Assembly: GCF_001050275.1 (NCBI RefSeq)
Contig: NZ_BBYA01000010.1
Span: 434,001-498,000 of the forward strand
Source of the DNA: Leptolinea tardivitalis
GTDB taxonomy: Bacteria; Chloroflexota; Anaerolineae; Anaerolineales; Anaerolineaceae
Direction of reading: 5' to 3'
DNA: 64,000 nt
The position numbers were made by a program, and so were the translations under genes. The notes beneath the pieces are model-generated. The model had not been told where the DNA came from and ran no database searches. It worked only from the letters and a program-made list of their open reading frames with translations. Every line of letters begins with the position of its first letter. The stretch's first letter is position 1. This document shows positions 45,497 through 45,630 of this stretch, in pieces.

Positions 45497-45535
45497 TGCT
45501 ACAGGACATGAAATTTCTACAAAGAGGTAGGCAAA

Positions 45536-45562
45536 ATGAAAATGTGTATGTGTAGAAAATGA
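45536..45562 (+). CDS. candidate Met/Cys-rich leader peptide of metY
   Basis: A tiny ORF encoding MKMCMCRK, with GAGG 8 bases before its ATG. Five of eight residues are Met or Cys, the products of the pathway served by the gene that follows. The codons for Arg, Lys and stop (45555-45562, GAAAATGA) form the 5' arm of a hairpin that ends in a T-run before metY. A ribosome waiting on Met or Cys codons would cover this arm and prevent termination. Confidence 0.55.
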   Translation: MKMCMCRK

Positions 45563-45607
45563 CTGTGCCCTGTGATGCAGTTGCATCCATCGTTTTCAAG
45601 TTTTTTT
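45555..45607 (+). terminator. attenuator terminator before metY
   Basis: GAAAATGA (45555-45562) pairs with TCGTTTTC (45590-45597) with one G-T pair; an inner hairpin GATGC/GCATC (45574-45578, 45583-45587) closes the middle. AAG and T7 follow at 45598-45607. An alternative pairing, ACAGGACA (45501-45508) with TGCCCTGT (45566-45573), is mutually exclusive in part. Confidence 0.6.
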
Positions 45608-45630
45608 GTTCAGTCTAAGGAAAAATTATT

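Follow-up and report, generated by a model that had tools for sequence, protein, structure and literature searches.

A conserved Met/Cys-rich short ORF between metA and metY of a SAM-riboswitch operon in Leptolinea is a candidate leader-peptide attenuator

Between metA and metY of Leptolinea tardivitalis lies a conserved short open reading frame (uORF) rich in Met and Cys codons, and we consider it somewhat probable, judging from sequence, that it belongs to a sulfur-amino-acid leader-peptide attenuator placed inside an operon of SAM riboswitch, metA and metY. The uORF itself would probably sense the sulfur amino acids and so tune metY. It occupies positions 45536–45562 (+ strand) of the window, which is the whole stretch of 64,000 nucleotides that was analysed, and reads ATG AAA ATG TGT ATG TGT AGA AAA TGA; five of the eight residues of the encoded MKMCMCRK* are Met or Cys. 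A Shine-Dalgarno-like GAGG (45524–45527, + strand) precedes it, and GGAGG stands at the matching place in two congeners. A sequence-only reading of this DNA had described this eight-codon ORF with its ribosome site and had placed a SAM riboswitch before the first gene of the operon; both features are there, the riboswitch as an RF00162 match of 89.4 bits.

The SAM (S-box) aptamer stands at the operon head (44413–44515, + strand) and is followed by the riboswitch terminator (44536–44567, + strand), a 9-pair stem with a T-run directly after it that provides an in-operon yardstick of a strong terminator. Next come metA (44579–45496, + strand; homoserine O-acetyltransferase type, NF047918, 499.6 bits against a cut-off of 460.5) and, after a gap of 134 nt that holds the uORF, metY (45631–46923, + strand; O-acetylhomoserine sulfhydrylase class, TIGR01326, 662.6 bits against 495.1), whose own Shine-Dalgarno-like site, judged by its sequence, is AAGGA (45617–45621, + strand). 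The riboswitch also lies 5' of metA in the three congeners, so it is found in all four genomes of the genus. A simple consensus scan for sigma-70 sites detected no promoter-like site in the metA-metY gap, which counts for an attenuator, and neither a second RF00162 riboswitch nor another SAM family matched there. The T-box family RF00230 reached its gathering score nowhere in the window and gave no match in 45440–45700 at E values up to 5, the sole entry there being a sub-threshold snoRNA match. Downstream of metY lie genes for an HTH_17 protein with a PocR sensory domain (47066–47803) and a Pyr_redox_2 protein (47815–49047), and elsewhere in the window there is a cobalamin riboswitch (15109–15251, + strand, 60.2 bits).

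The presence of the uORF in the gap is more than chance. Among 20,000 dinucleotide shuffles of the 134 nt, 25 contained an ATG-initiated ORF of at least six codons with at least 60% Met/Cys, and a single one of these had a Shine-Dalgarno-like site as well, under criteria that were set after the sequence had been viewed.

The uORF lies at the same place in Leptolinea sp. HRD-7 (G001, AP024710.1), as MSMCMCRK*, and in Leptolinea sp. isolate AS27yjCOA_114 (G003, JAAZMZ010000002.1), as MDMCMCRK*, with Shine-Dalgarno site, start and stop kept; three of the four genus genomes thus carry it. Across these three, 23 of the 27 uORF columns are identical, compared with 62 of the 276 fourfold sites of the two genes, metA and metY, and 31 of 101 sites in the rest of the gap (binomial probabilities of about 8e-12 and about 7e-9, respectively, which assume independent columns). 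Since so few of the fourfold sites are identical, the silent sites of the three genomes are well mixed. The four varying columns are the three bases of codon 2 and the first base of the Arg codon, where the change (AGA/CGA) is synonymous. Together with the kept signals this pattern is that expected of a translated ORF, but it falls short of proof because both Cys codons are TGT in all three genomes, when comparable two-fold codons are identical three ways in 53 of 152 cases.

This near-identity leaves room for an alternative, which we rate as improbable, in which the conserved block works as RNA or DNA, for instance as a binding site, and contains the ORF only by coincidence. With most bases of the uORF identical, synonymous changes alone cannot separate coding from nucleotide constraint, and the palindrome GATGCR-NN-YGCATC, which follows the stop codon, is also kept. 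Nevertheless, it is the Shine-Dalgarno site, start, frame and stop that are preserved while codon 2 is free and the one other change is synonymous, and the palindrome recurs at only one other place in the L. tardivitalis genome. A regulon-wide DNA operator was likewise rejected, GATGCRNNYGCATC being present at only two places in that genome.

The fourth congener, G002, has an intact, shorter metA-metY gap in which no Met/Cys uORF was found; its only short frame is MDLLK*, which is perhaps a remnant or decayed form of the uORF. An inverted repeat, CAGGTCA/TGACCTG, surrounds this frame. In a tree of MetA plus MetY, G003 lies nearest the outgroups (ultrafast bootstrap 83) and G002 comes next (54); because of these support values, loss of the uORF in G002 is only suggested. 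MetY was sought in 61 genomes and 18 loci with strong matches were taken (L002–L019, L. tardivitalis included). Of these, 16 were read in the right orientation in the scan for Met/Cys-rich uORFs, and an SD-led frame was present in three, those of L. tardivitalis, G003 and G001; two more distant loci contain Met/Cys-containing frames without a Shine-Dalgarno site. A SAM riboswitch that reaches the gathering score is present in six of the seven distant relatives L011–L017, L015 being the exception. It precedes metY on the metY strand in L011, L012, L014, L016 and L017, and likewise in L013 once that locus, stored reversed, is turned. In these relatives MetY is probably under direct SAM control, to go by gene order, which makes the uORF an addition seen only in the genus Leptolinea.

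The pattern ATGTGYATGTGYMGNAARTRA was present in 3 of 147 genomes of the family (64 of which reach 90% completeness with no more than 5% contamination), all from Leptolinea. The MxCxC codons whose conservation the sequence-only reading proposed to check in relatives are therefore strongly kept within the genus, in three of four genomes, and were found in none of the other family genomes. In a wider collection of 84,980 species genomes, in which L. tardivitalis itself may be absent, ATGTGYATGTGYMGNAARTRA matched 18 stretches; two are the Leptolinea loci and contain the only SD-led ORFs before metY. The other 16 were discarded as leaders, each falling within a frame that stays open, on one strand, for at least 153 codons; L040, the richest of them in Met and Cys, is antisense to a long gene. 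A looser pattern (Shine-Dalgarno, ATG, CMCR) was found at 24 places in 20 of 396 genomes of the class, and 20 of the places were fetched as loci. Besides L. tardivitalis, three of these have short in-frame ORFs of 7–10 codons, MCMCRCF (L060), MRPACMCRSK (L072) and MVCMCRGRAM (L074), each enclosed by an open frame at least 185 codons long and hence taken as chance. A search of the four genus genomes that allowed three mismatches gave one extra match, in G001, inside an open frame of 181 codons. The absence of the uORF from G002 and from the relatives searched beyond the genus counts against the attenuator.

We then turn to the structures that could link the uORF to metY. The last codons of the uORF, Arg-Lys-stop, overlap the 5' arm (GAAAATGA, 45555–45562, + strand) of an outer stem whose 3' arm (TCGTTTTC, 45590–45597, + strand) is poorly conserved; the two form eight pairs, one of them G-U. 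A T7 tract follows at 45601–45607 (+ strand), corresponding to T5 in G003 and to no comparable run in G001. The arms and the T7 are thus where the sequence-only reading had put them, but the tract does not follow the stem directly: AAG intervenes in L. tardivitalis, unlike in the riboswitch terminator of the same operon. Within the loop of the outer stem, 11 nt after the stop codon, lies an inner hairpin (GATGC-AGTT-GCATC, 45574–45587, + strand) that is better conserved than the outer stem. Ten of its 14 columns, namely its ten stem bases, are identical in the three genomes (binomial 1e-4 against fourfold sites and 2e-3 against the rest of the gap, columns again being assumed independent). A longer pattern for this hairpin matched 6 of the 147 family genomes: L. 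tardivitalis, G001, G003, G084 (at two places), G009 and G010. In G009 the match is on a contig other than that of metY, and in G084 and G010 no metY ortholog was located.

An 8-pair stem plus T7, features likewise chosen once the sequence was known, arose in 22 of the 20,000 gap shuffles, and T7 at all in 484. The fold of 45490–45640 is of ordinary stability (z +0.77, equalled by 156 of 200 shuffles), while 45553–45612 is somewhat unusually stable (z −2.13, 7 of 200). In L. tardivitalis the uORF end forms the 5' arm of a terminator-like hairpin of −11.7 kcal/mol followed by AAG and T7. G003 uses the uORF end in a longer form, TCGAAAATGA, whose partners are bases of TCGTTTC and TTTTCGA (−12.2 kcal/mol, then AATTTTT). 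The best hairpin of G001 (−8.9 kcal/mol) is built from post-stop bases, some of which belong to a 6-nt insertion, and it has a poor tail that is only U-rich. When hairpins with at least five T in the next eight bases were compared with 300 shuffles, in a segment whose start was chosen after looking, 2, 3 and 1 shuffles were as good for L. tardivitalis, G003 and G001, respectively. A hairpin with a U-rich tail therefore recurs in three species and overlaps the uORF in two of them. The compensatory changes that the sequence-only reading proposed to look for in the stem are borne out in part: the uORF end still serves as 5' arm in G003, with a partly different 3' arm and a U5 tract, but G001 has neither a stem with the uORF nor a good U-tract, and three aligned uORF sequences give almost no power to detect covariation. 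The alternative partners of the post-stop segment vary from one of the three species to the next, and no conserved antiterminator was found among these pairings. The unconserved outer stem and U-tract in G001, the AAG spacer and the ordinary stability of the whole region all count against the attenuator.

These weaknesses bear on a second alternative, to which we assign an appreciable but clearly minor chance: the sensor would be the same, but translation of the uORF would govern access to the metY ribosome-binding site, or access of Rho or an RNase, with no intrinsic terminator. G001 keeps the uORF where the terminator is not conserved, and in G003 the post-stop bases can pair with the Shine-Dalgarno site of metY (GUCCU with AGGAU). 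Precedents are found in the available portions of the literature, which describe Cys leaders without terminators (PMC1262725) and cysteine genes of Mycobacterium smegmatis under translation attenuation (PMC13236596). In L. tardivitalis, however, the corresponding bases, CCCUG, form by eye no more than about three pairs with AAGGA, the GG of the metY site is paired in every stall state folded, with a changing partner, and there is no conserved sequestering stem.

The attenuator would work as follows. Once past the riboswitch and metA, RNA polymerase would transcribe the eight-codon uORF, and ribosomes would initiate at its Shine-Dalgarno site and translate its codons in the order Met, x, Met, Cys, Met, Cys, Arg, Lys. 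If Met-tRNA or Cys-tRNA were scarce, the ribosome would slow near Met5/Cys6 and cover the uORF end, that is, the 5' arm, and metY would be transcribed. With both charged tRNAs plentiful, it would finish and leave, the hairpin could form and metY would be reduced relative to metA. In this model we infer that the uORF is translated, that the charging of Met and Cys is what is sensed, that transcription is the level of control and that the effect has this direction. The leading edge of a ribosome lies about 16 nt from the P site; with this footprint, stalls at Met5 or Cys6 cover the 5' arm and a stall at Met3 leaves it free. A fold of the L. tardivitalis leader with Cys6 in the A site is predicted to lack the outer stem. 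In L. tardivitalis and G003, the footprint of a ribosome that has reached the stop codon would stop immediately short of the inner hairpin. The direction given in the sequence-only reading, in which stalling allows read-through, is accordingly plausible for Met5/Cys6 stalls but not for the Met3 stall. Because of this difference, read-through under Met or Cys shortage would be the simplest direction, though not a forced one. The position of sulfur codons before sulfur-amino-acid genes counts for the attenuator, whereas scarce Met should also lower initiation, which would count against it.

The end of the peptide can be read in two other ways. The nascent MxMCMCRK might stall the ribosome on a small molecule, SAM or a thiol compound, instead of on codon charging; very short arrest peptides exist, and conservation of the C-terminal CRK* is as strict as that of the Met/Cys codons. 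For RK*, though, the hairpin arm GAAAATGA that overlaps it also explains the conservation, and the riboswitch of the same operon already senses SAM, so we regard an arrest peptide as an outside chance. Less credible by far is that UGA is read as selenocysteine, giving a selenium-responsive or a longer Cys-rich peptide. Selenocysteine is probably used in the genus, because tRNA-Sec is present above the family cut-off in all four genomes (6404–6496 of contig C15 in L. tardivitalis). UGA is the stop in all three uORFs, a hairpin lies 11–17 nt downstream, the frame stays open for some 16–23 more codons and the insertion in G001 is of 6 nt. Yet the post-UGA codon differences are, by eye, mostly non-synonymous and track the hairpin rather than a protein, and the open length after UGA is unremarkable. 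Furthermore, the G that bacterial SECIS elements have near the start of the loop is missing from G001.

Returning to the attenuator, the classical ribosome-mediated transcription attenuators are those of trp, his and ilv. Like them, the Leptolinea element has a leader ORF enriched in codons for the controlled amino acid, an overlapping hairpin and, in L. tardivitalis, a U-tract, but it differs in that no conserved antiterminator was found, the terminator is weak and the 5' arm overlaps the stop codon. It is also separate from the S-box riboswitch, which senses SAM and lies before metA. Closer in amino acid content are leaders from Actinobacteria. According to the accessible part of a 2005 study, Cys leader peptides without clear terminators were predicted there, Cys-rich leaders standing before cys operons in Mycobacterium and Propionibacterium acnes and before cbs in Bifidobacterium longum (PMC1262725). 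Ribosome occupancy is described for one Cys leader in M. smegmatis in the portion available of PMC4633059, and cysteine-responsive attenuators of mycobacteria were reported by Canestrari et al. 2020, as cited in PMC13236596. As far as these excerpts go, the Leptolinea uORF shares with such leaders a short conserved frame, sulfur-amino-acid codons clustered near the stop, a place before sulfur genes and the lack of a strongly conserved terminator. The actinobacterial leaders are upstream of operons and, by the title of the 2020 paper, leaderless, whereas this uORF is SD-led, intra-operonic, from Chloroflexota and uses Met plus Cys; with its alternating Met/Cys it falls outside their Cys-responsive class, which is marked by a Cys run, leaderless and actinobacterial. 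The nearest match is the metL leader of Streptomyces lividans, MSTTSDRTPATEATTTPGARCMCRRMCAF (...RCMCRRMCAF), proposed as a Met/Cys leader before metNIQ (PMC8079986). It has mixed Met/Cys codons, a CMCR core, a methionine gene set behind it and an unclear terminator, but it is 29 codons long, leaderless and before a transport operon, and in the part of the paper available the authors name methionines and threonines, not cysteines. The likeness in the CMCR core may be chance.

The earlier statement that peptide control of MetY had not been described holds for MetY itself within the literature searched, although Cys leaders and the proposed Met/Cys leader metL had, by the portions cited, already been published. 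A literature search that covered few subscription papers found no further Met or metY leader and no earlier report of such a leader in Chloroflexota. What appears to be added here, relative to those partly available sources, is a combination: Met plus Cys, an SD-led frame, an intra-operonic position and Chloroflexota.

If the attenuator is real, SAM sensing and aminoacyl-tRNA sensing would be stacked in one operon, and a second sensor between the genes would make one enzyme tunable apart from the other. More tentatively, and with a chance that we put somewhat short of even, sensing would be two-level: the SAM riboswitch before metA and an intra-operonic leader responding to Met- and Cys-tRNA charging that sets the metA:metY ratio, which would make it an attenuator counting two amino acids. 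MetY-class enzymes incorporate sulfide into homocysteine and, in some cases, into cysteine, so reading the supply of both Met and Cys would make sense.

Finally, we searched for leader peptides before other biosynthetic genes of the genus. No SD-led short ORF was detected in the 600 nt before leuA in three genus genomes or before trpE in one, and this lack of a further leader peptide where one was sought counts against the attenuator. Of the three genus genomes searched, trpE was found in one, G001, where a T-box precedes it (L079, 1114–1408).
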